From Candidatus Nitrosocaldus sp. (GTDB lineage: Archaea; Thermoproteota; Nitrososphaeria; Nitrososphaerales; Nitrosocaldaceae): DNA of 64,000 nucleotides. Under the pieces are notes generated by a model. That model was not told where the DNA came from. It was given only the letters and a program-made list of their open reading frames with translations, and did no database searches. A program made the translations under genes and the position numbers. Below are positions 47,511-63,144 of the stretch, piece after piece. The stretch spans positions 54,966 to 118,965 of the forward strand of contig JANWZS010000004.1 in assembly GCA_025054855.1 (NCBI GenBank). Reading direction: 5' to 3'. Numbering within the stretch: the first letter of the stretch is position 1; each line of letters opens with the position of its first letter.

Positions 47511-48521
47511 TCAGCCCTTCCTTATCCCACTGAATCTAGCATTAAGAACAACTCTCCTTACTATTCTGACCACTTCATACGCAAAGCCCCTTACATCCTC
47601 TGCTACGCTACCAAGCAACCTAACCATTACACCAGAATCATTGGGTAGTATAGATGCCCCTCCAACTATGTTGAAGTGCTTAAGGGCAGAGTTCACCTCC
47701 TCACTTATAGCATTAACGTATTCTGTCCTAGTCAGTATGTAGATGCTCCCAACCACATCACGATCATCAAGTATGCCCATAGTCTTGAGGTTACTCTTCT
47801 TTGGCTCCAGGACTACGTTATCTATGAACCTTATGCTACCGTACTGGTTCCTGGCTATAGCCTTCATATAGCATATATCGTACTGGAATGCCTCATCCCT
47901 TGCAACCCTCCCAGGTACTATGATATCAGAGTAGACTAGCGTGCCATGCTCATGCACGTTCAGGTTAACCCTCTGATAGAAGCGTGAGTCCCTGTAAGGG
48001 ATTATCTGATCAGGTATATACTCCATGTAGCAGTCCTTATCGACGCTGATATTAACCATCTGGGTAGCATAGTTCCTATTCATCCTGTATATCCTGGTTG
48101 CACCCTGGGTGGTTACATGCAGCATTGCCTTATTCCTTAACACTATATCCATCCTGTACCTATCCCCCTGAAGTACCCCTCCAGATGGGGACATGATGTA
48201 CACATACGCCATCCCTGGTAACGACTCCTCAAGGTACATTGCTTTAAGCACTACCAATGGCACCTTTGAGAACTTTTCCTTTATCACCGTTCTACCATTA
48301 CTGGCACCCTCAAGCATCAGGTAGAGCAGGCCAGTCTTACCAGCTCTCCCCACCTCCAACTGTGCCAGCTTCGCTTCATACGCTAACACCTCAGGCGGTA
48401 TATCATCTGGTATGTAGAACTCTATCCTCGTATGGTCTATAGCGTTGGGATAGGTAGCAGTATTGTTATCATAGTTACTATTACCATCACTGCCAACAGC
48501 CTTCACATCACCATTGCTCAT
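47511..48521 (-). CDS. ureD: Urease accessory protein UreD (UreH)
   Basis: Scaffold that binds apo-urease with UreF and UreG during nickel loading. GKTGLLYLMLEGASNGRTVIKEKFSKVPLVVLK (in parts), MSPSGGVLQGDRYRMDI, TTQGATRIYRM and MEYIPDQIIPYRDSRFYQ are UreD blocks. The first 30 residues are Asn/Asp-rich and variable. It is separated from ureG by 81 bp and has its own TATA-like box, so it may be transcribed alone as well as by read-through. Confidence 0.93.
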   Translation of the reverse strand: MSNGDVKAVGSDGNSNYDNNTATYPNAIDHTRIEFYIPDDIPPEVLAYEAKLAQLEVGRAGKTGLLYLMLEGASNGRTVIKEKFSKVPLVVLKAMYLEESLPGMAYVYIMSPSGGVLQGDRYRMDIVLRNKAMLHVTTQGATRIYRMNRNYATQMVNISVDKDCYMEYIPDQIIPYRDSRFYQRVNLNVHEHGTLVYSDIIVPGRVARDEAFQYDICYMKAIARNQYGSIRFIDNVVLEPKKSNLKTMGILDDRDVVGSIYILTRTEYVNAISEEVNSALKHFNIVGGASILPNDSGVMVRLLGSVAEDVRGFAYEVVRIVRRVVLNARFSGIRKG

Positions 48522-48550
48522 AATATTACCCCATATCTACCCTGCATACC

Positions 48551-48560
48551 CGCATAAATT
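48551..48560 (-). promoter_or_regulatory. TATA box of ureD
   Basis: AATTTATGCG on the minus strand, 30-39 nt ahead of ATG 48521. Other AT-rich stretches are close, so the exact box is uncertain. Confidence 0.4.
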
Positions 48561-48602
48561 GATTTTATCTTTATTCCTCATATTAAATGGAATTTACATT
48601 GA

Positions 48603-49265
48603 TCATCTGCTGATTGGCTTTGGCGGTGCCTCGAACAGCACATCCCTTATCACATGCTCCACAACCTTATCTATCCCCTCCCCAGTCTTGCAGTTGACGA
48701 AGACGAATGGCTTGCTCCCTCTCACTATCCTTGCATCCCTCTCCATTATGCTGAGATCTGCACCAACGTATGGAGCAAGGTCTACCTTGTTTATGACCAA
48801 GAGGTCGCACGTCTCTATCCCTAGCCCCCTCTTCCTAGGATACTTGTCTCCAGCAGAGACATCGACTATGTATATGAAGTAATCGGCAAGTGCTGGGCTG
48901 AATGTAGTCGTTATATTATCCCCTCCACTCTCTATCACTATGAGGTCAAGGTACGGATACTTGCTCTCCAGCTCCTCAACTATGGCCAAGTTCATGGAAG
49001 GATCTTCACGTATCGCTGTATGCGGGCATCCTCCAGTTGCTACCCCTATCACAAGCTCCTCTGGCACTATACCCATCTCCTTGGCAAGATGCCTACGCAT
49101 CCTCTCAGCATCCTCCTTGGATACAACGTCGTTGGATATTATACCTACCTTGTACCCCCTTGCTGCCAGTATCGGTACTATCCTCTCTATCAGCATGGTC
49201 TTGCCAGAGCCTACTGGACCACCTACTCCTAGCCTCGGTATCCTCTTACTGCTCATATGTAACAT
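48603..49265 (-). CDS. ureG: Urease accessory GTPase UreG
   Basis: SIMIBI GTPase that drives nickel insertion. P-loop GVGGPVGSGKTML, VVSKEDAERMRR, the metal-binding GVATGGCPHTAIRED (CPH motif), IESGGDNITTTFSPALADYFIYIVDV in pieces and the base-specific NKVDLAP. Frames extend to 49349, but ATGs at 49265 and 49256 fit the family start and stand 8-17 bp after ureF. Order E-F-G-D downstream of the chaperonin. Confidence 0.95.
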   Translation of the reverse strand: MLHMSSKRIPRLGVGGPVGSGKTMLIERIVPILAARGYKVGIISNDVVSKEDAERMRRHLAKEMGIVPEELVIGVATGGCPHTAIREDPSMNLAIVEELESKYPYLDLIVIESGGDNITTTFSPALADYFIYIVDVSAGDKYPRKRGLGIETCDLLVINKVDLAPYVGADLSIMERDARIVRGSKPFVFVNCKTGEGIDKVVEHVIRDVLFEAPPKPISR

Positions 49266-49273
49266 CTCTGATC

Positions 49274-50119
49274 TCAAGTTATAAACATTTTCGTAGCAAG
49301 CCTCTCGTGCATCATCTGCACTATATCTATCTCTGGGGCGAACTGCCACATGCTCGATAACGGCTTATCTATATTCTCCTTCACAACAGTAACCATCAAT
49401 GGCTTAAGATCATCAACAATCATCTGCCCTTGAAAGTGATTGAGCATGCCAAGCCTCAACGCTGCGCCTATCACGCTTATGGAGAAGGAGTATAACAGTA
49501 TGAGCCCAGCCTTGGGCTTTGGTATGCTGAATACGTTGCATGCCACTGCTAAGGCTACTGGATACACACCGTTGGCCTTCTTGGATCTTACAGCATCATC
49601 ATAGGACTCCAGTATAGAGTAATTATTATTACTACTGCTACTACTGCTATCTGCCTTCCTATTACTAACTATATGATTCAAGCATCTTATCAGTTGTATG
49701 CCAGATCTTACAGATGCCTCCCTTATCTCCTTTATCAGCCTCATGGAGAATAGCATGTTATCTATCTCTACCAGCCTAGCCAGATTGGATTCCCCTGCTG
49801 CTTGATAAGCGTTACCAAGTGCAACACAGTCTGCAGGACCTATCTGCTGCTTCAGGAACACAGCCAATAGACTCTTCAGATGCTCCGCACTCTTCACCCT
49901 CTTGTTATAAAAGAACATCTCTAATCCATTTGATGTCGTATACATACCAGTTGGAAAGAAGGAGTCTGCCAGCTGCATCATGCTTATATCCTCCACACTC
50001 ATTGCACATGTCATACCATCATTGCTCTTACCATCAGCACTACTGCGTACTTTGCTACTAATGCTACTGCTGTCATTACTGCTCTTCTCTCTTGCATCTA
50101 CATCTGTATCAGTGCTCAT
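49274..50119 (-). CDS. ureF: Urease accessory protein UreF
   Basis: All-helical partner of UreD and UreG. MQLADSFFPTGMYTTSNGLEMF, QQIGPADCVALGNAY and GVYPVALAVA are family blocks. A Ser/Asn homopolymer insert (residues about 155-163) sits between helices. An N-terminal Ser/Asp-rich stretch of about 40 residues precedes the core. ATG 50119 overlaps the ureE stop by 11 bp. Confidence 0.92.
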   Translation of the reverse strand: MSTDTDVDAREKSSNDSSSISSKVRSSADGKSNDGMTCAMSVEDISMMQLADSFFPTGMYTTSNGLEMFFYNKRVKSAEHLKSLLAVFLKQQIGPADCVALGNAYQAAGESNLARLVEIDNMLFSMRLIKEIREASVRSGIQLIRCLNHIVSNRKADSSSSSSNNNYSILESYDDAVRSKKANGVYPVALAVACNVFSIPKPKAGLILLYSFSISVIGAALRLGMLNHFQGQMIVDDLKPLMVTVVKENIDKPLSSMWQFAPEIDIVQMMHERLATKMFIT

Positions 50120-50633
50120 GTACCTCAGCACCTTCCTCTGGCTCAAAGACCATCCTTACCTTCTCAACCACGAGATGATCTAGTATGGGATCAAGCAGTC
50201 TCCTCAGCATCTCCATCTCGGTATCAGCCTGTATAGGGAAGTAGATGCTTCTATCCTCAACCTTTATTGGTCTATGCAGGTTTCCTATAGTATGCCCTAT
50301 CCTAGCAGCCATCTCTACAGCATGATCTGCAGGGGTATCATCCCTTATCCTTACCATCGCAAGGTCCTCCTCCTCAAGCTCCACAACTATCATCCTCTCA
50401 TCAGAGAGGTGGATCACATCACCATGCCTTAACCTAGAGCCCTGAGGCAGTGTTATGATCACATCACTCCCCTTATCCGTTGACTTGCGCATCCTCACCC
50501 TCTCAGTCTCCATCCTGCTTATCCTCACGGTCTCACACAACCCTTGCTTTGACATATCTTCATACCTTGCTCTGAGCATGCTATCCCTGTTTACATTGCC
50601 TAGTATTGAACCAACATGTATGCTAGCACTCAT
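50109..50633 (-). CDS. ureE: Urease nickel metallochaperone UreE
   Basis: Peptide-binding N-terminal domain (RISRMETERVRMRKSTDKGSDVIITLPQGSRLRHGDVIHL, in parts) and a nickel-binding C-terminal ferredoxin-like domain with AARIGHTIGNLHRPIKVE, whose GHxxGNxH is the usual site. It lacks a long His tail (ends VHEH). Its start overlaps the 119-residue upstream gene by 4 bp. Confidence 0.93.
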   Translation of the reverse strand: MSASIHVGSILGNVNRDSMLRARYEDMSKQGLCETVRISRMETERVRMRKSTDKGSDVIITLPQGSRLRHGDVIHLSDERMIVVELEEEDLAMVRIRDDTPADHAVEMAARIGHTIGNLHRPIKVEDRSIYFPIQADTEMEMLRRLLDPILDHLVVEKVRMVFEPEEGAEVHEH

Positions 50634-50989
50634 CCCCTCCTGCTCACCCTTGCCTCCCTCATCCTCTTAACAGCATCATGCATATCCAGCATCCTCTGCG
50701 TAGTATCTACTGGCCCATGATGCTGGTATGCAGATCTATCAACAGACGCAAATAGTAGTCCATTGTTATTGAACTTGACCCTTGCACCTATCTCAAACCT
50801 CTCCGCTATGACACATGTAGTCACCCTATGGTATGGATAGTCCAGGTTCAGGTGGGTTGATGGATCGATGTAGCCTGACATCGCTGCTATCCTCCCTGCA
50901 ACTATTGTAACATGCCTTATCCTGCTGGGATCTACAACATACATATTCTCATCAACATTTGACTCCTCTACACAATGGCGTATAAGCAA
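50630..50989 (-). CDS. Unknown urease-cluster protein, 119 aa
   Basis: No family recognised. Beta-rich centre (HVTIVAGRIAAMSGYID, TTCVIAERFEIGARVKFNNNGLLF), then a helix rich in Arg (MLDMHDAVKRMREARVSRR). Several His (HLNLDYPYH, YQHHG) could bind metal. It sits 9 bp after the chaperonin-like gene and overlaps ureE by 4 bp, so it is made together with the urease maturation proteins. A role in maturation or nickel handling is inferred from context only. Confidence 0.65.
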   Translation of the reverse strand: MLIRHCVEESNVDENMYVVDPSRIRHVTIVAGRIAAMSGYIDPSTHLNLDYPYHRVTTCVIAERFEIGARVKFNNNGLLFASVDRSAYQHHGPVDTTQRMLDMHDAVKRMREARVSRRG

Positions 50990-50998
50990 CCTTATTAC

Positions 50999-52546
50999 TC
51001 ACCTCTTGCTCTCCGATAGTGCCTGCTGGCTTAGGTCCTCTGCAGCAAGGTTCCTGTCTATCCTCAGCACTGCCTTTGCTATCTCACCAGCAGCCTTTAG
51101 GGCAGTTGTCTTGACCAGCAATGGATCGAGTACACCTGCCTCCATCATATCTATTGGTTCACCTGTGTTTATATCTATACCAAATGTATCTGGCAGTGCC
51201 TTTGCGGTCATGACCTTCTCCAACCCGTTGAAGCCAGCGTTAGTAAGTATCTGCCTCATTATGCTCTCCAGCGCTGCTGCTACCACATCCACACCAACCT
51301 GCTCCAGACCCTTCAGCTTCAGGCCCTTCATCTTATCTATTACATGCAACTCTGCAGCACCCCCTCCAGCAACTATACCCTTGTTCAGTGCAGCCTCTGC
51401 AGCATTCACCCCATCCCTGGCAGCCCTCCACCGCTCCAGAGACGTCTCCTTCGTTGTGCCAGAGACCACTATTGTGACTATGTTCCTGTTCTTCCCACCC
51501 TCTATGTATATGATGCTGTTATCCTCATCCTCATATACCCTATCCGCATGACCAAGGGCATCTTGTCTAAGATCATCCATGATCCTCACAGGCTTTGCAC
51601 CAGTGTAACGTGCCACATGCTCTATCTCATCCGTAGAGATCAGTGCACCGAACACCCTCCTACTTATCAGTAGGTTCTCTACAGCATCATCGATCTCAGG
51701 GGATGCTATGAGTATTACATTGGCTCCAGTTGCCAGCATGGCATCAACCATCTCCTTTGCCTTTGCTACCCTGTCCTTCTCCATGGTGAGTATATCCTCA
51801 TACCTGCTGTTCCCCTTCAACCATGACTCCTTAACAGGCTTCAGATCCAACCTGCACAGGAGTATCCTCGCATCCCTTACCTCAGGTGGTAGATCCCTAT
51901 CCAGTCTACCCCTCTCAAGTATCAGACCAGAGACGACCTTATCATCCACATTCATCCTCCTCACCACCTTTATCGATCTGTCAAAGTCATAGGAGCCATT
52001 ATGGAGTGCGTTATGATTTACAGATCTTATTGCATGTATAACTAGAGATGCAAGTCTCTTGCCATCCAGCTTCGATGCCAATGATGTGTTAACCACATGC
52101 TCCAACTCAACACCATCGACGGTTATCCTCCTTGCTGCTCTCTCCAGCAACTCACATGCATAGTGTACACCACTCTCTATACCCTCAACTACCTTGGTAG
52201 GATGCACTCCCAGCTCCTTTATCAGCCTCTTGCCCTCCTTGACCATCTCTGCTGCCATGACCACTGCTGTTGTAGTACCATCACCAACCAACTGCTCCTG
52301 CCTCTCAGCAATCTCAACAACCATCCTTGCTACTGGGTGTATGGTCTTCAACGATAGCAGTATGGTTACACCATCGTTGGATACATGCCTGTTCATAGCC
52401 TGATCTATGAGGAGCTTATCCAACCCCTTTGGACCAAGAGTGGTTCTTACGGTATCTGCCACTGCTATGACAGCGTTAGCGTTAGACTCCAATGCATCAA
52501 ACTCTATGTTCTGTGCCATAGGACGCCACACGCTTGCATTACTCAT
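50999..52546 (-). CDS. Diverged thermosome (group II chaperonin) subunit in the urease cluster
   Basis: Full chaperonin: ATP-site LGPKGLDKLL, SNDGVTIL, VGDGTTTAVVMAAEM, and GIVAGGGAAELHV with the Asp of ERWRAARDGV near it. The apical and lid regions are present and length (515 aa) is near normal. It departs from usual thermosomes: GGGAAE for GGGAVE and MRQILTNAGFNG for PRTLAENAGLD. No GGM tail. It has its own TATA-like box and is followed by the unknown gene and ureE-F-G. A urease-dedicated chaperonin is inference. Confidence 0.9.
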   Translation of the reverse strand: MSNASVWRPMAQNIEFDALESNANAVIAVADTVRTTLGPKGLDKLLIDQAMNRHVSNDGVTILLSLKTIHPVARMVVEIAERQEQLVGDGTTTAVVMAAEMVKEGKRLIKELGVHPTKVVEGIESGVHYACELLERAARRITVDGVELEHVVNTSLASKLDGKRLASLVIHAIRSVNHNALHNGSYDFDRSIKVVRRMNVDDKVVSGLILERGRLDRDLPPEVRDARILLCRLDLKPVKESWLKGNSRYEDILTMEKDRVAKAKEMVDAMLATGANVILIASPEIDDAVENLLISRRVFGALISTDEIEHVARYTGAKPVRIMDDLRQDALGHADRVYEDEDNSIIYIEGGKNRNIVTIVVSGTTKETSLERWRAARDGVNAAEAALNKGIVAGGGAAELHVIDKMKGLKLKGLEQVGVDVVAAALESIMRQILTNAGFNGLEKVMTAKALPDTFGIDINTGEPIDMMEAGVLDPLLVKTTALKAAGEIAKAVLRIDRNLAAEDLSQQALSESKR

Positions 52547-52565
52547 GTTGTATGAGTCGTATGGT

Positions 52566-52577
52566 AAAATAAAAAAG
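52566..52577 (-). promoter_or_regulatory. TATA box of the chaperonin-ureEFG unit
   Basis: CTTTTTTATTTT on the minus strand lies 20-31 nt ahead of ATG 52546, so this unit can be transcribed apart from ureABC. Confidence 0.6.
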
Positions 52578-52613
52578 ATTTTGGTTATTGTACGCCTTAT
52601 CTTACCGCTTCCA

Positions 52614-54341
52614 TTACGCTATGAAGTACCTCTGCGCCAGCGCAAGCTCCTTGGCTGGTTCTACAGTCGCTATCTTGCCATCTATCTTAACCTCATAGGT
52701 CTCCGGGTCTATCTCTATCCTTGGCGTATTAGCATTCCATACCATGTCCTTCTTGCTTATGTTCCTGCAGTTCCTCACTGGGAGCACTATCTTCTCCAAC
52801 CCAAGCCTGTTCTTCACACCCAACTCCATCGCCCTCTTCGATACGAATGTGAAGCTTGTATTCTTCACAGCCCTACCGAATGCACCGAACATAGGCCTGT
52901 AGAAGACTGGTTCTGGTGTTGGTATGGATGCATTAGGATCTCCCATTATAGACCATGCTATGAACCCTCCCTTGAAGACCATCTTCGGCTTTGCTGGGAA
53001 GAACGGTATAGGATAAACTACTATATCGGCGTACTTGCCTGGCTCCAGCGAGCCCACATAGTCTGCTATGCCATGTGTCTTTGCGCAGTTTATTGTCGTC
53101 TTCGCTATGTACCTCTTTGCTCTATAGTTATCGTTATCCGTAGAATCCTCCTTCAGCTTACCCCTCATCTTCTTCATCTTGTCTGCAGTCTGCCATGCCC
53201 TCAGCGTCACCTCGCCTATCCTACCCATCGCCTGGCTATCAGATGAGTACATGCTCAATACTCCCTCATCATGGAGCACATCCTCTGCTGCTATGGTCTC
53301 TGCCCTGATCCTGGACTCTGCGAATGCAACATCCTCTGGCACTGCAGGGTTGAGATGATGACAGAACATCAGCATATCCAGATGCTCATCGACCGTGTTG
53401 ACTGTATATGGCCTTGTTGGGTTGGTTGATGATGGTAGTGCGAACTCCTCTGCTGCTATCTTCATTATATCTGGTGCGTGACCTCCTCCAGCACCCTCTG
53501 TATGGTATGTGTGTATAGTTCTCCCATCTATCGCATTTATTGTATCCTCAACGTACCCACACTCATTGAGGGTATCTGTGTGTATTGCTACCTGTGTATC
53601 CGTCATATCCGCTGCTCTAAGTGATGCATCTATCACTGCTGGTGTAGTGCCCCAGTCCTCGTGTATCTTGGTCCCTATGGCACCAGCATCTATCTGCTCC
53701 AACTGTGTTGCAAGTGAGGGATGAGAGTCGTTACCCTTGCCCAGGAACCCAAAGTTGACTGGAAAGTCCTCCACAGCCTCCAGCATCCTGCTCATGTTGA
53801 ATACCCCAGGTGTGCATGTTGTAGCATTAGTACCATCTGCAGGACCAGTGCCCCCTCCTATGAGCGTAGTTGTACCAGCACTTATCGCCTCTATGTAGAG
53901 CTGGGGGCATATGAAGTGTATATGCGTATCTATATGCCCTGGTGTGCATACTGTATGCTCTCCTGCAGTTGCTTCTGTGCATGCAGAGACGACCATGTTA
54001 GGATTCACATCATCCATTATGTATGGATTGCCAGCCTTGCCTACACCTGCTATCTTCCCATCCTTTATGCCTATATCTGCCTTGACTATGCCTAGGATGG
54101 GATCGAGTATCAGTGCGTTGGTTATCACATGATCCAGTGCACCATTAGCATTAGTGATCCCTGGTGCCTGTGCCAGCCCATCCCTTATCGTCTTGCCTCC
54201 ACCAAATACACACTCATCCCCTGGGGTTATGAGGTCCTTCTCAACCTCTATTATAATATCTGTATCTCCTAGCCTAACCCTGTCCCCCTTGCTGGGACCA
54301 TACAGTTCCGTGTACTGCTTCCTTGTTAACTTGAGAACCAT
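52614..54341 (-). CDS. ureC: Urease subunit alpha
   Basis: Catalytic subunit: urea to ammonia and carbamate. All active-site residues are visible: nickel His 140 and 142 (HIDTHIHF), carbamylated Lys 225 (GTKIHEDWG) with His 227, His 254 (AIHTDTL), His 280 ([11 protein letters not shown]), flap Cys 327 (FCHHL) and Asp 368 (SSDSQAMGR). 575 residues, a full bacterial-type alpha chain. Transcribed after ureA and ureB. Confidence 0.98.
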
Positions 54342-54350
54342 GCTCTCACC

Positions 54351-54737
54351 TCATGCCCCCTTGTAGCCCCTCAGCCTAGCCTTCTCCAACGCCATCCTCT
54401 TCACTACACTGGATGTTGTGCTACCCATTGTCAAGCCACCACATCCATAGAAGACCTTCCTGCCTCCAAACTCAACAAGCTCAACCTCCTTTGTATCACC
54501 TGGCTCGAATCTCACTGCTGTGCCTGCAGGTATGTTGAGCCTGTAACCAAATGCCTTCTCCCTAGGGAACTCCAGTGCCCTGTTGACCTCGAAGAAGTGG
54601 GTATGCGATCCAACCTGTATAGGTCTATCACCTGTATTCTTCACGGTAACCTTGATGGTCTTCCTGCCCTCATTGCATACAACAGGCTCTGCAGAGAGTA
54701 TGTATTCCCCTGGCTTCATACTCCTATCACCTCTCAC
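54351..54737 (-). CDS. ureB: Urease subunit beta
   Basis: Small subunit of the trimer. [39 protein letters not shown] and [24 protein letters not shown] (in parts) are family marks. The likely start is the ATG at residue 6 (MKPGEYIL, 54722); the longer frame overlaps ureA by 4 bp. Separate from ureA here, unlike the fused form of Helicobacter. Confidence 0.96.
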
Positions 54738-55036
54738 TGTATTGGATCATGCACAGTCACCAACTTTGTACCATCTGGGAACGTTGCCTCTACTTGCACA
54801 GTATGTATCATATCTGCTACTCCATCCATCACATCACTCCTCTTCAGAATAGTCTTCGCCTCCTTCATCAACTGCGCTACACTCTTGCCCTCCCTCGCCC
54901 CTTCAACAACGTAGTTGGCGATGTATGCAACAGCCTCCACATAGTTCAGCTTCAAGCCCCTACTCTTGCGTTGCGCTGCGATCTGTGCTGCTGTCCATAT
55001 CAACATCTTTTCTATTTCTCTAGGTGCTAACATCAT
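54734..55036 (-). CDS. ureA: Urease subunit gamma
   Basis: 100 residues: [46 protein letters not shown] (in parts), [23 protein letters not shown] 55036 (or 55033) is chosen since a TATA-like CTGATAATTATTG region on the minus strand (about 55054-55065) stands 26 nt upstream. A frame to 55069 crosses this box. First gene of ureABC. Confidence 0.96.
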
Positions 55037-55053
55037 ACTAATCAGCTCTATAC

Positions 55054-55062
55054 AATAATTAT
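55054..55062 (-). promoter_or_regulatory. TATA box of ureABC
   Basis: ATAATTATT on the minus strand, 18-26 nt ahead of the ATG pair at 55036/55033. Confidence 0.5.
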
Positions 55063-55177
55063 CAGGCAAATATTTTAGAATTTTTAGTAAGAATTAATAT
55101 AAGTCAACTCATCAGTAAAGCAATTCAGTCGATGTCTACAAAAAATAAGTTTGCTGAGTCTTGTTGCTATGCATCTG

Positions 55178-56338
55178 CTAAGGCCTTGCCCATCCTATCC
55201 CTGCTGGTATGTACTGGAACCCTGCAAGACCAAGCAAGAATATCCATGCTGTGAATACGAATGGTCCGGTAAGTGCAGGGAGACCCCATCTCCCGAACAG
55301 GTTCTGGAATGCAGGCATCATGAACGAGCATGCTACTGTAGCCAGTACAGCGTAGAGGAATGTCTGCCATGTCAATGGTACAAAACTAGTCAGTGCTATC
55401 ATGACAAGTACCTGATTGAACCCATGCAACCCCATCCTTATCTCTGCAGTAGGTAGCTTCTGCAGTATGGCCATCCCTGCACCTATGGCAGAGCCTATTA
55501 GTGCCATGGCTCCTGCTAGATAGAGTGGAGATGTCGGGTCCCACTGTGTTGTGTATGCATTTGTGAACAGTCTTGATACCGTTGTGCCATCTGGGGCAGT
55601 GTATGTAGTAGCCAGCAGCTCGAATGACAGTGTAAGCCCAACTACCCAGAATATGCCAGTCTTCCAGTTCTCTACGAACGTCACCTGCGAGACACCCTTG
55701 AGCACTGCTATCATGAACTCCTTTGGCGTCCATCTGAATGAATGCTCAGGCTCAGGGTTACTGCTACCAGGCATCAACTTGCTGACACTCGTACCACTGG
55801 CAACTGCAGCAACTATAGGCTCTGTCTGTGCTGGGGCTGGCCATATGTTATGCCCAAACCTCTTCGTTGCAAGCATTATGGCCCAAGTTGTGAATATGAA
55901 CGATGATGTGAACCCTGGTATAGCCCAGCCTTGTCCTCCTAGTACAAACCAGTCACCCATGACGTGTGCAAATGCCATCCATGATACAGCCGTCCATGCA
56001 GCACCGAATATGGAGATGGCAAATGTTGCACGATTCGATTTGACGAATGGGCCAGACCAGAACGCCATCCCAGTTAGGATGGAGTTATAGCCGAAGAGTC
56101 CAAACGTTACAAGATCGTATGGTGCGCCCATCATAAGTGCCATCCCTGCACCTATCAATCCTGCTATAACCATCATGACACCTGCTCGCCATGATGCCAA
56201 CAGTACTCCAGCAAGTATCAGTATCCCGTTCAGGGGAGAACTGAACAATGGAACTTCAGATATTCCATTGAAGAGTATGTAGAAGAAGTCCAGTAGAGGG
56301 TCTCCAGTACTGTAGCTAGGGCAACATGTTCCTGCCAT
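55178..56338 (-). CDS. Urea transporter, UT (SLC14-like) family
   Basis: About ten hydrophobic helices in 386 residues. Two repeated halves carry NGISEVPLFSSPLNGILILAGVLL and its later counterpart (LFSTYTT-like, with LPTAEIRMGLHGFNQVLVMIAL), the LNxxL-type signatures of UT channels. UT proteins let urea pass down its gradient. It precedes ureABC on the same strand by about 140 bp. An AT-rich block at 56356-56400 holds a possible TATA (GAATTAAATC) about 26 nt upstream. Confidence 0.9.
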   Translation of the reverse strand: MAGTCCPSYSTGDPLLDFFYILFNGISEVPLFSSPLNGILILAGVLLASWRAGVMMVIAGLIGAGMALMMGAPYDLVTFGLFGYNSILTGMAFWSGPFVKSNRATFAISIFGAAWTAVSWMAFAHVMGDWFVLGGQGWAIPGFTSSFIFTTWAIMLATKRFGHNIWPAPAQTEPIVAAVASGTSVSKLMPGSSNPEPEHSFRWTPKEFMIAVLKGVSQVTFVENWKTGIFWVVGLTLSFELLATTYTAPDGTTVSRLFTNAYTTQWDPTSPLYLAGAMALIGSAIGAGMAILQKLPTAEIRMGLHGFNQVLVMIALTSFVPLTWQTFLYAVLATVACSFMMPAFQNLFGRWGLPALTGPFVFTAWIFLLGLAGFQYIPAGIGWARP

Positions 56339-56558
56339 GCAGTAATGAATTACAAGGCGATTTAATTCTTTTTTAAAAATATTAGGATTTAATTTATAAC
56401 ATACTAAACTGATCTAAATAAGTTATCGTGTACTATAGATTGCATAAATACTGCTGGTAACCTGTTGCCCTGCTGATTGGTTGATATGTGAGTGCTGTGT
56501 ACGCATTACGGTTAGGTTCAGTAACAGACTACATCAACACGTATAATATTTAAAATAA

Positions 56559-56570
56559 TCTTTATAGATA
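56559..56570 (+). promoter_or_regulatory. TATA box of the DUR3-kinase fusion gene
   Basis: TCTTTATAGATA is 20-31 nt ahead of ATG 56590 and follows an AT-rich block. The 250-bp gap 56339-56589 is the shared control region with the divergent urea channel. Confidence 0.6.
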
Positions 56571-56589
56571 GATCGTATAATAGTCAGAT

Positions 56590-59349
56590 ATGGTCCCTAT
56601 ACTATCTGAAGGTGTAGGATACTTTATACTAATTGGACTTGGTTCTATACTGGCACTGATAGTCACACTGCTGATCAAGGCAGAGTTCAAATGGTTGGGA
56701 ACGAAGGTTACATCGGAGTGGTTCTCTACAGCAGGGAGGAACATAGGGACTGGGCTAGTGGCAGCATCTGTGGTATCAGCATGGACGTGGGCTGCAACGC
56801 TACTCCACTCATCTACAGTAGCATACCAATTCGGCATAAGTGGCCCATTCTGGTACGCTGCTGGCGCAAGCATACAGATAGTGCTCTTTGCAATACTTGC
56901 TATAGAACTGAAGAGGAGGGCTCCAACGGCACATACATTCACAGAGATCATACACGCCCGTTTTGGAAGCAGCACACACAAGATATTCCTCTTCTTTGCA
57001 CTCATGACCAATGCCATAGTTACTGCAATGCTAGTGCTTGGAGGCGCAGCTGCCGTGCATGCTCTGACTGGTGTGGATATACACATAGCAGCACTGCTTA
57101 TACCGCTTGGAGTCATCATATACACATTCTTTGGAGGCTTAAAGGCAACGTTCCTAGCAGATTACCTCAACGTAGCACTGATATTCATAGTTCTATTGAT
57201 ATTCGTTACAGTCATCTACTTCGTAAGCCCAGAGATAGGAGGTATAACAGGCATGTACAGTAAGCTGACGGCAGCATCTACACTGAGACCTATAGAGGGT
57301 AATGCCTTTGGCTCATATCTGACCATGGCTTCCACTGGGGCACTCATATTTGGTATAATAAATATAGTTGGGAACTTTGGTACTGTATTCGTTGATCAGG
57401 CTTACTGGCAGAGGGCTATAGCAGCAGAGCCTAGGGCTGCAGCAAAGGGGTTCCTGCTTGGAGGGCTAGCATGGTTCGCTATACCATTCACCTTGGCTAC
57501 CACGCTGGGCTTGACTGCAGTTGCAGTAGGCATTACGATCAGCCAGACGGACGTGGGTGCTGGGTTGGCAGCACCCATGGCAGCATCACATATACTGGGG
57601 GATGTAGGTGCAATACTACTCCTTACCATGCTGTTCATGGCTGTAACATCTAGTGGTTCTGCTGAACTCATAGCGGTATCATCACTAGTAACGTACGATA
57701 TCTACAGGGCATATATAAGAAGGAGAGCAACAGGGAAGGAGCTGATAAAAGTTGCTAGGTTAGTAATAATCACATTTGGTGTAGGGATAGGCATACTGGC
57801 ATCTCTGTTGCTTCAACTAGGCGTCAACCTTCAATACGTATACCTCTCGATGGGCATACTGATAAGCTCTGCTGTGGTTCCAATAGCCTTATCTGTACTA
57901 TCTAAACGAGCGAACAAGATGGCAGTTACGCTGGGTGCACTACTGGGTCTTGCTTGTGGTGTATCGATCTGGCTCTACTCAGCAAGCATGCTATATGGAG
58001 AGGTATCCATCTACTCTACAGGGCAGAGCATACCTCTCTTGCTTGGAAACATAACATCCCTATCTGTTAGTGCTGCTATATCACTCATCTACAGTATCCT
58101 CAGACCAGAGAGGTTCGATTTCAATGTACTGAAGAGGAGTATAAAGACGGTGGATGATAAGATAAGATCACTTCTTGAGGATAGAGATGATGCATTCCTG
58201 GAGAGGGCTAGACGGTTCACGTATAGGTATGCAGTAGCATTGACATTAGCACTGGTTGTTGTATGGCCACTACCCTTATACTTCTCCAACTATATCTTCT
58301 CCGAGGCTATATACTATGTATGGGTTACCATAGCAATAATATGGGCCAGCGTAGCAGCCATAGTGATAATAGTACTACCACTGGTAGAGGAGAGGAGCAG
58401 GATAATGCACGTATGGAAGAACATCATAATACCAACCGTACTGGCGGCGATAATGGCTGTAGCCATCATAGTATCCATACTGCTATACTCATCCATAGAA
58501 GAGAAGAACAAGGATGTGGCTGAGCATATCCTAGTATTCATATACAGCCTCCTATGCGTCATGGGAGGCTTTGCAGCAGTAGTCATAATGCTCAACATGA
58601 AGCTCTCCAAGTTGGTTGAGATAAGGACTAGGGAGTTGGAACTGGCCAATGCAGAGCTGAAGCGTAAGGATAGGCTCAAGGATGAGTTCATAAGCATAGC
58701 ATCACACGAACTTAGAACCCCGATCCAGCCTATCCTAGGATTCGTAAACCTAGCAAGGAGAGGTAAGATAGATCCAGATACAGCTTTGGATGGGATACTC
58801 AGGCATGCAAAGAGGCTACAGCATCTCACAAATGAGATACTCGATGTAAGCAGGATAGAGAGCGGGAACCTTGTATTACACATGGAGAGGGTGAGGATAA
58901 ACGATATAATAGTCGATGTGGTCAATGCCCTAAGACCAAGTATAAGCAGTGAGGTATCGCTGGATGTCAAGCTCGATGAGGATGTGGAGGTGTATGTGGA
59001 TAAGATGAGGATCAACCAGGTTATAACGAACGTACTGGATAATGCAATAAAGTTCACAAAGCATGGTAGGATAAGCATAGAGAGCAGGGTATTAAAGAAC
59101 AAGGAGAGGATAGAGATAAGCATAAGTGATACTGGAGGGGGTATACCGGAGGATCTACTCCCCGTTCTATTTGAGAAGTTCGTTACGAAGAGCCTATACG
59201 ATGGTAATCAGTATGGCGTGGGGTTGGGCCTGTTCATAAGCAGGGCTATAGTTAATGCGCATAAGGGGGAGATAACTGCTTACAACAACGATAGAGGTGG
59301 TGCAACATTCATAATAACGCTTCCCTTTGATAGCACGAGGTGCTTATGA
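56590..59349 (+). CDS. DUR3-like urea/solute symporter fused to a histidine kinase (transceptor candidate)
   Basis: Residues 1-510 are a sodium:solute symporter of the DUR3 urea type, with about 13 helices: SAWTWAATLLHSSTVAYQFG, SGPFWYAAGASIQI and RRAPTAHTFTEIIHARFG are near-diagnostic. A linker (about 510-540) leads to four more helices (about 545-680). Then comes a HisKA domain with phospho-acceptor His 706 (ASHELRTPIQP) and an HATPase with N box NVLDNAIKFTKHG, G1 DTGGGIPED and G2 GVGLGLFISRAIV. CbrA-like SSS-kinase fusions are known in bacteria; an archaeal one beside urease and with DUR3-type sequence is notable. Likely senses or imports urea and signals to the adjacent regulator. Confidence 0.93.
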   Translation: MVPILSEGVGYFILIGLGSILALIVTLLIKAEFKWLGTKVTSEWFSTAGRNIGTGLVAASVVSAWTWAATLLHSSTVAYQFGISGPFWYAAGASIQIVLFAILAIELKRRAPTAHTFTEIIHARFGSSTHKIFLFFALMTNAIVTAMLVLGGAAAVHALTGVDIHIAALLIPLGVIIYTFFGGLKATFLADYLNVALIFIVLLIFVTVIYFVSPEIGGITGMYSKLTAASTLRPIEGNAFGSYLTMASTGALIFGIINIVGNFGTVFVDQAYWQRAIAAEPRAAAKGFLLGGLAWFAIPFTLATTLGLTAVAVGITISQTDVGAGLAAPMAASHILGDVGAILLLTMLFMAVTSSGSAELIAVSSLVTYDIYRAYIRRRATGKELIKVARLVIITFGVGIGILASLLLQLGVNLQYVYLSMGILISSAVVPIALSVLSKRANKMAVTLGALLGLACGVSIWLYSASMLYGEVSIYSTGQSIPLLLGNITSLSVSAAISLIYSILRPERFDFNVLKRSIKTVDDKIRSLLEDRDDAFLERARRFTYRYAVALTLALVVVWPLPLYFSNYIFSEAIYYVWVTIAIIWASVAAIVIIVLPLVEERSRIMHVWKNIIIPTVLAAIMAVAIIVSILLYSSIEEKNKDVAEHILVFIYSLLCVMGGFAAVVIMLNMKLSKLVEIRTRELELANAELKRKDRLKDEFISIASHELRTPIQPILGFVNLARRGKIDPDTALDGILRHAKRLQHLTNEILDVSRIESGNLVLHMERVRINDIIVDVVNALRPSISSEVSLDVKLDEDVEVYVDKMRINQVITNVLDNAIKFTKHGRISIESRVLKNKERIEISISDTGGGIPEDLLPVLFEKFVTKSLYDGNQYGVGLGLFISRAIVNAHKGEITAYNNDRGGATFIITLPFDSTRCL

Positions 59350-59396
59350 TTCATGGATCCATGGATTCCTATAATTGGCACCACGCTCTGCCCAGA

Positions 59397-59915
59397 TCAC
59401 CTTAACCTTTCTATGCTCTCCAACAGATCCTTTACCTGCTCCTGTGTCAGATCGAATTCATTCAACTCCTTAAGGTATTCATTCAACTCCTGGAGTTTCT
59501 TATACGATGTCTCATCCTCGATCATATTTATCAGTGTATCTAGTTCGAATGGCTTCTGAATGAGTTCTACCACATGTCTAAGTTGTTTGATGGAATCTAG
59601 CAGAGTCTCCTTCACATACGCCGATGCAAATATTATCCTTTGCTGGGGATTTAGGCTCAATATCTCTCTTGCAACACTCATACCGTTCACCTTCGGCATC
59701 CTGTAATCGAGTACAACCACATCAAATGCAGATGGACTGGTATTCCCATGGCCTGCATCTCCTGCACGCTTGTATATCTGCCTTAATCCCTCCTTATATA
59801 TTCTGGTACATGCCTCCCCATCGATGGCTAGAATAACCTCATGGTTCCTCTCCTCTAACGCTATCTTGTATTGGATCGCAGTATCTATCTCGTCCTCTGC
59901 TATGAGTATCCTCAT
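59397..59915 (-). CDS. Response regulator with REC domain and helical tail
   Basis: REC domain: acidic pair in AEDEID, phospho-acceptor Asp 70 (VVVLDYRMPKVNG), Ser/Thr in FASAYV and Lys in IQKPFE. A Gly/His/Ser-rich insert (about residues 42-62) lies before strand 3. The C-terminal 45 residues are charged helices (KKLQELNEYLKELNEFDL) with no DNA-binding domain, so output is likely by protein contact. It converges on the DUR3-kinase gene with a 47-bp gap, making it the probable partner. Confidence 0.9.
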   Translation of the reverse strand: MRILIAEDEIDTAIQYKIALEERNHEVILAIDGEACTRIYKEGLRQIYKRAGDAGHGNTSPSAFDVVVLDYRMPKVNGMSVAREILSLNPQQRIIFASAYVKETLLDSIKQLRHVVELIQKPFELDTLINMIEDETSYKKLQELNEYLKELNEFDLTQEQVKDLLESIERLR

Positions 59916-60272: not shown

Positions 60273-61151
60273 ATGTATAGAGAGTTAGAGAATAGGCTAG
60301 CAGATTCTGTGGTAGAGAATGTTGAGATAAAGCTGATAAGAGCATCCAAGTATTCGATAAGGCATAGTACTGAACTTGAGATAAGTAAGATAAGGGAACT
60401 TGCTTCTAGCATACAGCAGCATGGATTGCTCCAGCCTATACTGGTTAGACCAGTAGAGGATGAGCTTGAGGTTGTAGCAGGGCATAGAAGGCTTCAAGCA
60501 TGCAAATCTCTAAGATGGAGAACCATACCATGCATAATAAAAGAGTTGAACGACAAGGAAGCATACGAGATACAGTTGGTAGAGAATATTCAAAGGCAGA
60601 CATTAGATCCGATAGAGGAGGCTGAGGCATTCAGCAAGTATGTCATGGAGTATGGCTGGGGAGGTGTTACTGAGTTGGCAAGGCGTATAGGAAAGAGCGA
60701 AGAGTATGTATCCCATAGGATACAACTGCTGAGACTGCCAGAGAGTATAAAGCAGGAGATCAATATGGGAAGGCTGAGTGTGAGTCATGCACTGGAACTG
60801 GTCAACCTGAGTCCTTCTGTGCAGGAGAAGATGGTTAATGCTATAATACAGAATAGTCTATCGGTGAAGGCTGTAAGGGAGCTGAAGAGATTACGATCGT
60901 TTGAGGTTGAAGAAGGGGAATCTTACATAAAGGATAAGTCAACTTACATAAATGAGAAGAGGATACGTATACTCAAGAAGACTATAATAGCACTCAAACT
61001 CACACTCTACAGATTGGACTCTCTCATAGAAGAGACCAAGAAGACGCTTGAGCCTAACGATGCAGTAACCATTACAAATACTCTAATGTATATCAGATTG
61101 ACTGTACATAACCTTATAGATGAGGCTATAAAGGCCAAACACCATACATGA
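60273..61151 (+). CDS. ParB/Spo0J-like DNA-binding protein
   Basis: ParB N-domain (about 15-110): KIRELASSIQQHGLLQPILVRP, the CTP-site motif VAGHRRLQACKSL and QLVENIQRQTL. Then the HTH domain (about 115-185) with GVTELARRIGKSEEYVSHRIQLLRL and a coiled-coil-like end (about 225-290). ParB proteins bind parS and load SMC or segregate DNA. No parA is in view, so it may be a solo regulator. An inverted repeat overlaps its promoter. Confidence 0.9.
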   Translation: MYRELENRLADSVVENVEIKLIRASKYSIRHSTELEISKIRELASSIQQHGLLQPILVRPVEDELEVVAGHRRLQACKSLRWRTIPCIIKELNDKEAYEIQLVENIQRQTLDPIEEAEAFSKYVMEYGWGGVTELARRIGKSEEYVSHRIQLLRLPESIKQEINMGRLSVSHALELVNLSPSVQEKMVNAIIQNSLSVKAVRELKRLRSFEVEEGESYIKDKSTYINEKRIRILKKTIIALKLTLYRLDSLIEETKKTLEPNDAVTITNTLMYIRLTVHNLIDEAIKAKHHT

Positions 61152-62685: not shown

Positions 62686-63144
62686 ATGCGTACATTGCTA
62701 GCAGTGTGTATAGCAGTCTGGACCCTGCTCGGTGTATTCCTGCTGCTAGATATAAGCAAGGAGTTCGCATTTGCAGATATACATAAATTCGAGGACTCGA
62801 TAGTCGATGCAACTAACAAGGTTAGGGCAGAACATGGTCTGCCATCGCTGGTCAAGGATGCCATGCTTACGGAGAATGCGAAGAGGTACGCAATAGTCAA
62901 TGCGGACAAGGGATTCATATCCCATAACCATGAACCACTAACCTCGAGGATGCCAAGCAGCTGCATCTCCATAGGGGAGAACCTATACCAGGGAAGGGAT
63001 GGTAGTGGAGAGGGCATAGTCAATGCTTGGATGAGGTCACCAGCACACAGGGAGAATATACTCGATGCGGAATGGGAGAGGATAGGCGTTGGGGTAGCAA
63101 GGATAGGAAGCCAGATAGTGGCAGTGCAGTTGTTCTGTAGATAG
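62686..63144 (+). CDS. Exported CAP/SCP-domain protein
   Basis: Signal peptide or anchor (residues about 4-22, LLAVCIAVWTLLGVFLLL), then a CAP domain of YkwD type: ATNKVRAEHGLPSLVKD, LTENAKRYA, the metal-site SHNHE, ISIGENLYQG and WMRSPAHRENIL. CAP proteins bind lipids or act as proteases; archaeal roles are unknown. Has Cys pairs (SSC near the middle and FCR at the end) that fit an exported fold. Confidence 0.86.
   Translation: MRTLLAVCIAVWTLLGVFLLLDISKEFAFADIHKFEDSIVDATNKVRAEHGLPSLVKDAMLTENAKRYAIVNADKGFISHNHEPLTSRMPSSCISIGENLYQGRDGSGEGIVNAWMRSPAHRENILDAEWERIGVGVARIGSQIVAVQLFCR

Follow-up and report, generated by a model that had tools for sequence, protein, structure and literature searches.

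The locus analysed here raises the question of whether an archaeal protein that joins a urea symporter to a histidine kinase, encoded beside the urease genes of an ammonia oxidiser, acts as a urea transceptor with a two-component system of its own. Urea use is thought to shape the niches of ammonia-oxidising archaea (PMC12686405), and Nitrosocaldus cavascurensis, a cultured member of the genus, grows on urea according to its genome paper. On the evidence of sequence comparison, we regard a urea transceptor with a dedicated two-component system as the probable answer, and hold it with moderate confidence. The window, that is, the whole stretch of DNA analysed, comprises 64,000 nucleotides of a Nitrosocaldus genome (GCA_025054855.1, hereafter G000; 1.56 Mb, 98.9% complete). 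The features on which the argument depends are the following, where DUR3-HK denotes the fusion of symporter and kinase.

47511..55069, minus strand: urease locus with ureA, ureB, ureC, an Hsp60-like gene, a 119-aa orf, ureE, ureF, ureG and ureH/D (open reading frames, conserved synteny)
55178..56338, minus strand: UT-family urea channel (Pfam UT, E 1.6e-51)
56339..56589, no strand: divergent intergenic region between UT and DUR3-HK (three-genome alignment)
56590..58407, plus strand: DUR3-type urea symporter core, aa 1-606, with 15 TM helices (phmmer, Foldseek, invariant positions)
58408..58659, plus strand: fusion-specific two-helix hairpin and linker helix, aa 607-690, lying past the point where untailed and Usp-tailed DUR3 proteins all end
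58678..58866, plus strand: HisKA domain, aa 697-759 (Pfam), with the phospho-acceptor His706 at 58705-58707 by residue position
58999..59331, plus strand: HATPase_c domain, aa 804-914, with N, G1, F and G2 boxes (Pfam, residue positions, nearest solved kinases)
59397..59915, minus strand: convergent response regulator of 172 aa, REC only (Pfam, three-ortholog alignment, residues)
60273..61151, plus strand: ParB/Spo0J-like DNA-binding protein that co-travels with the urea locus (Pfam ParB_N and HTH_ParB)

The DUR3-HK frame (56590-59349, plus strand) translates into a single protein of 919 aa. Pfam matches to SSF at residues 45-455 (E 5e-25), HisKA at 697-759 (1e-15) and HATPase_c at 804-914 (3e-27) put an SLC5 domain and, C-terminal to it, a histidine kinase in one chain, the arrangement of the SLC5/STAC sensor kinases CbrA and CrbS/MxtR. 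The H, N, G1, F and G2 boxes of an orthodox HisKA/HATPase_c kinase are all intact, with His706 in SHELRTP, LDNAIKF at 816 in the N box, DTGGGIP at 847 in G1 and GVGLGL at 876 in G2. We rechecked the frame, the Pfam domains and the motif positions, and all coordinates and residue numbers of the sequence-only reading hold, as does its complete HisKA-HATPase kinase with phospho-His 706. The 919-aa protein is common to three Nitrosocaldus genomes, namely G000, G067 (one closed contig, which appears to be N. cavascurensis) and G360, with 87-91% identity. Among these genomes dN/dS values are 0.08-0.11 for the symporter, 0.03-0.09 for the hairpin and linker and 0.08-0.11 for the kinase; judged by these ratios, both halves of the protein are evidently under purifying selection. 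The equal frame in three genomes, one of which is closed, and dN/dS values of about 0.1 or less rule out an artefact of assembly or frameshift.

The symporter half had been assigned to the DUR3 type, and it groups with DUR3 by E-values, structure match and tree. In phmmer searches residues 4-605 match the chains of plant DUR3 structures at E 1e-180, whereas the next SLC5 proteins score about 1e-8 or weaker, and identity to the plant DUR3 proteins with urea-bound structures is 40-45%. The AF2 model has 15 core helices as in solved DUR3, and its first-ranked Foldseek match is Arabidopsis DUR3 9j7d (TM 0.90 by target length, rmsd 2.6), a dimer solved with urea. The difference in E-values and the Foldseek ranking rule out a proline, acetate or sugar carrier. 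Plant DUR3 (Arabidopsis 9j7c, 9j7d and 9x5u, maize 9vim) belongs to the same symporter family across the 15-helix core and is likewise dimeric, but it has no kinase tail. As a proxy in place of named urea-contact residues, we scored the 175 positions that never vary among the untailed DUR3 proteins of archaea, bacteria and plants. All three Nitrosocaldus fusions keep 156 of them, and most of the 19 changed positions are also altered in DUR3 proteins with a Usp tail; E359 and M350 are kept in the fusions and are often or always changed in the Usp-tailed proteins. DUR3-HK is, furthermore, the sole SSF-family protein in the G000 genome. Given the DUR3 match, the fold, the retained invariant positions and the single SSF protein of the genome, the Nitrosocaldus symporter half is likely to be competent for transport.

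Four extra helices had been noticed between the symporter and the kinase. Two of them (~605-632 and ~643-666) are indeed specific to the fusion, whereas the other two (~534-558 and ~572-600) are present in every archaeal and plant DUR3. The fusion-specific pair encloses an extracellular loop of 10 residues (~633-642). Lysines and arginines in the predicted loops follow a positive-inside pattern (28 inside versus 4 outside), which points to a cytosolic kinase. In the AF2 model one continuous helix runs from residue 638 to 723 and reaches the phospho-histidine, at low confidence; the kinase half of the model is unreliable because only two alignment rows cover it, and confidence is too low to show coupling. 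Pfam returned no match at all in residues 456-696 of DUR3-HK, and so no PAS domain before HisKA; residues 600-696, occupied by two TM helices and one linker helix, seem to leave no room for a soluble four-helix bundle such as STAC.

The regulator ends 47 bp from the kinase stop, tail to tail with it, and has the catalytic residues expected of a REC partner: Asp70, an acidic pair near residue 8, Ser98 and Lys121. Open reading frames, Pfam and these residues bear out the earlier description of a REC-only regulator with Asp 70 converging at that distance. Pfam detects no DNA-binding or output domain in it, and its C-terminal helical tail (aa ~134-172) is almost identical in an alignment of the orthologs from three species. 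Family searches return DUR3-HK as the only HisKA kinase in each of G000, G067 and G360, and the other HATPase_c proteins in G000 and G067 are CheA and Topo VI B only. The three REC proteins of G000 are this regulator, a CheY-type protein and CheB, a pattern repeated in G067 and G360. DUR3-HK and the regulator are the cell's only non-chemotaxis two-component system. Since the genome has one HisKA kinase and one non-chemotaxis regulator, and since the same convergent layout is found elsewhere, the regulator, previously described as cognate-looking, is very probably the partner of DUR3-HK.

The relatives of the two proteins support this pairing independently of the argument by elimination. Within the class, the kinases most similar to that of DUR3-HK (50-57% identity) mostly lie next to the regulators most similar to its partner (50-61%), in a tail-to-tail layout with spacings of -3 to 71 bp, as in G108, G111, G143, G131 and G135. 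In the kinase tree the fused kinase of Nitrosocaldus nests among these convergent pairs of other ammonia oxidisers. Many of the nearest stand-alone kinases consist of a helix, a large presumed extracellular region, a second helix and the kinase, and their similarity to the fusion starts near the second helix. We infer that the fusion arose when DUR3 was joined to a convergent kinase/regulator cassette already present in ammonia-oxidising archaea, the symporter taking the place of the kinase's own extracellular sensor domain.

The UT channel and the urease genes lie upstream of the fusion and divergent to it, as the open reading frames, the Pfam UT match and synteny agree with the first reading in placing them. 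The gene names in the urease locus rest on similarity and established gene order, and its conserved 119-aa orf has no Pfam match. In the three-genome alignment of the intergenic region, TTTAAAATAATCTTTATAGAT is conserved ahead of the start of the fusion gene, and an A/T block lies close to UT. The proposed link between the fusion and urease extends to relatives: the two occur together in all three urease-bearing Nitrosocaldus genomes, and the fusion is absent from the three without urease. In each of these last (G079, G098 and G163) ureC, DUR3 and HisKA are all missing and REC proteins number only two; kinase, regulator and urease are jointly present or absent in six of the six genomes of the genus. 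As the three share one locus, this pattern and the sole-system finding may reflect a single gain or loss, which counts against the case for a transceptor. The ParB-like gene was not found in the urease-negative Nitrosocaldus genomes; elsewhere it adjoins both Usp-tailed and kinase-tailed DUR3 genes where the flank allows. The genome of another genus of the family (G136) is without urease and has two unrelated kinases.

To place the fusion among its relatives, we surveyed DUR3 domain orders in 400 Nitrososphaeria genomes. DUR3 is found in 78 of them, in three architectures: untailed (~655-690 aa, apart from a few longer proteins), Usp-tailed at the C-terminus (~740-870 aa) and kinase-tailed (889-919 aa). 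Tailed and untailed proteins form separate clades in the tree. The Usp family is generally viewed as ATP-binding and regulatory. Usp-tailed genes usually stand in the order ParB, Lrp-like, DUR3 (with or without UT) and urease, and Nitrosocaldus keeps this order with the REC regulator in the position of the Lrp-like gene and the kinase in that of Usp. DUR3-Usp of other ammonia-oxidising archaea thus has an orthologous symporter in the same ParB-regulator-DUR3-UT-urease locus, but differs in its C-terminal domain and in its Lrp/AsnC-like neighbour. This neighbour falls below the Pfam cut-off and was recognised by profile search against solved structures; it is absent from the family of Nitrosocaldus. 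The orientations of ParB, regulator and DUR3 are each flipped in Nitrosocaldus compared to the Usp-type locus, which argues for replacement at a position rather than simple inheritance.

Kinase-tailed DUR3 also occurs in a second form, of Nitrosotenuis type, in which complete SSF, HisKA and HATPase_c domains are carried by full-length genes (914 aa in G003 and 889 aa in G297). The domain order is equal, including the two extra TM helices, but the kinase comes from another clade and the symporter has diverged, with 121 of the 175 invariant positions kept and 54 lost, compared to 156 kept in Nitrosocaldus. No regulator was found within ~20 kb of the fusion in G003, and no urease genes in the flanks examined of either Nitrosotenuis-type fusion. 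In the kinase tree the two kinds of fused kinase fall in different halves, and a single clade is rejected (p-AU 7e-60), which rules out one shared fusion event with the kinase kept since. One origin of the fusion is not rejected by the symporter tree (p-AU 0.31), where the long branches of G003 and G297 make the history of this half uncertain. Rejection by one tree and neutrality of the other leave either two fusions or a later swap of the kinase. The fusion of G003 is probably SU86_09525 of strain SAT1, described in 2016 as a truncated transporter plus a truncated kinase in a strain without growth on urea (PMC4814877); the gene published as a truncated pseudogene appears to be a full-length fusion. 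We see a slightly better than even chance that the dedicated urea transceptor, the sole non-chemotaxis two-component system of a thermophilic ammonia oxidiser, belongs to a wider scheme in which the DUR3 proteins of ammonia-oxidising archaea serve as a plug-in platform, with tail and regulator exchanged together (Usp with the Lrp-like protein, or kinase with REC) and the kinase fused at least two times.

If DUR3-HK is a urea transceptor, as the first reading proposed and the comparisons support, the dimeric DUR3 half would move its last helices as it binds or turns over urea, and this shift would pass down the continuous helix into the dimerisation helix of the kinase. Autophosphorylation at His706 and the flow of phosphate to Asp70 of the regulator would change as a result. 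The dimeric structures of plant DUR3 fit a dimeric kinase. Once phosphorylated, the regulator would use its conserved C-terminal helix to act on another protein by contact. A candidate target is the co-travelling ParB-like protein, through which expression of urease and of the urea channel might be adjusted; this is the most speculative step.

The foremost alternative is that DUR3-HK is a sensor only, whose symporter half would bind urea to control the kinase without importing it while UT does the uptake. A separate UT channel always adjoins the fusion, and the Nitrosotenuis fusions have lost nearly a third of the DUR3-invariant residues (54 of 175), SAT1, which appears to be G003, being a strain that does not use urea. 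The Nitrosocaldus symporter, however, keeps the great majority of these positions (156 of 175), E359 and M350 among them, in a genome with no other SSF-family protein, and we consider a pure sensor unlikely. Next comes a reversal of direction, in which kinase and regulator would serve as an input that turns urea transport on and off, as the Usp tail may in other ammonia oxidisers, instead of reporting urea to the urease genes. The Usp tail at the orthologous locus, from a generally regulatory family, could be an input to the transporter and not an output, which counts against a transceptor, and a regulator that lacks a DNA-binding domain might have a protein target such as the transporter. Yet the fused kinase appears to derive from a family of conventional sensor kinases, which have extracellular sensor regions and are encoded convergently with regulators, and the Nitrosocaldus fusion, unlike the Usp version, brings a separate regulator gene, so that reversed signalling seems rather improbable.

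Much less probable is that the fusion handles some other substrate, such as a polyamine or another small amide, and sends a signal not tied to urease. Sequence gives no certain substrate, and polyamine transport has been reported for some eukaryotic DUR3 proteins; against this stand the linkage of the locus with urease and UT, its joint presence and absence with ureC, and the 40-45% identity to the plant DUR3 proteins solved with bound urea. Finally, an inactive relic or an artefact of annotation or assembly is largely refuted and scarcely credible, although PMC4814877 read the related SAT1 gene as truncated: the 919-aa frame is equal in three genomes, one closed, with low dN/dS (~0.1 or less) throughout and intact kinase boxes, and the Nitrosotenuis-type genes are full-length with SSF, HisKA and HATPase_c.

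Bacterial CbrA, to which the fusion had been likened, is a known SSS-kinase protein of a class established in the literature. CbrA of Pseudomonas, a nutrient transceptor, likewise has an N-terminal SLC5 symporter, a cytosolic histidine kinase and a dedicated regulator. It differs in that it carries histidine, has STAC and PAS before the kinase and signals to CbrB, a sigma54-dependent transcription factor, whereas DUR3-HK has a DUR3 symporter, a linker of two TM helices without PAS and a REC-only regulator. Counting against a transceptor are the linker, in which neither the PAS nor the STAC domain of CbrA was recognised, the regulator's lack of an output domain, and the coupling of transport and signalling in CbrA itself, which is not settled in the literature. 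A 2021 review with a SMART survey (PMC7918813) gives Ca. Nitrosocaldus cavascurensis as its archaeal example of SSS-HisKA proteins, and the protein so listed is almost certainly of the DUR3-HK family; in the review's text 'urea' and DUR3 have 0 occurrences, and its relevant passages do not mention the locus, the regulator or a function. In genome papers the Nitrosocaldus gene figures as a urea transporter of SSS type within the urease cluster, and a nitrifier paper treats dur3 genes as plain transporters. The fusion had been put forward as a candidate for an undescribed system, which is too strong for a class already known, with Nitrosocaldus listed in the 2021 review and the probable Nitrosotenuis fusion reported as broken in 2016. 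In the open literature searched we found no statement of a urea-type transceptor, nor of the sole-system finding, the Usp tail or the two kinase origins. As a candidate urea sensor encoded by a single gene, with a single candidate partner and no rival kinase, DUR3-HK bears on the means by which ammonia-oxidising archaea detect urea and come to prefer it to ammonia. The genes recorded until now simply as dur3 transporters comprise three architectures, and in two of these the tail is of a regulatory type.

At the urea locus of most ammonia-oxidising archaea, the C-terminus of DUR3 is a universal stress protein domain (PF00582), and no mention of such a Usp tail on archaeal DUR3 was found in the literature searched. 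These DUR3-Usp loci and several other features are as follows, L-numbers being loci in other Nitrososphaeria genomes:

L114, L116, L118-L120, L122-L149: DUR3-Usp loci
L118:8303-8860 and equivalents: Lrp/AsnC-like regulator, divergent, conserved, adjoining DUR3-Usp
Window 60273-61151, plus strand: ParB/Spo0J-like gene
L112:8352-11096 and L113:3871-6540: DUR3-kinase fusion of a Nitrosotenuis-like genus
Window 59397-59513: C-terminal tail of the REC-only regulator

Whether its tail is Usp or kinase, DUR3 is adjoined by a ParB/Spo0J-like gene at nearly all urea loci with sufficient flank, and this gene is missing from the urease-negative Nitrosocaldaceae. Given both its position and this absence, the encoded protein looks like a regulator of the locus rather than a partition protein. 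The Lrp/AsnC-like neighbour of DUR3-Usp matches the LrpA profile (E 2.8e-8) and scores under the Pfam cut-offs, so that it is probably carried as "hypothetical" in annotations.

Judging from sequence, the Nitrosotenuis-like DUR3-kinase may represent either a fusion independent of that in the window or a later swap of the kinase. The strain SAT1 gene reported as a truncated pseudogene (PMC4814877) is probably this same fusion. Just downstream of the fusion in G297, the genome holding L113, lies a further multi-helix histidine kinase frame on the same strand (L113:530-2883).

Across three species the REC-only regulator is nearly identical over its final ~39 residues, whereas an internal loop varies freely. 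This tail, which regulators of this family from other ammonia oxidisers also carry, could possibly form an output surface.

Other genes in the window include one for a 119-aa protein without a Pfam match (50630-50989, minus strand), which lies between Hsp60 and ureE and is conserved in urease clusters. A CRISPR ring-nuclease-like protein (Cas_APE2256/TIGR02619; 61493-62449, minus strand) adjoins the urea locus, and an archaeal protein with a CAP/SCP (YkwD-like) domain is encoded at 62686-63144 (plus strand).
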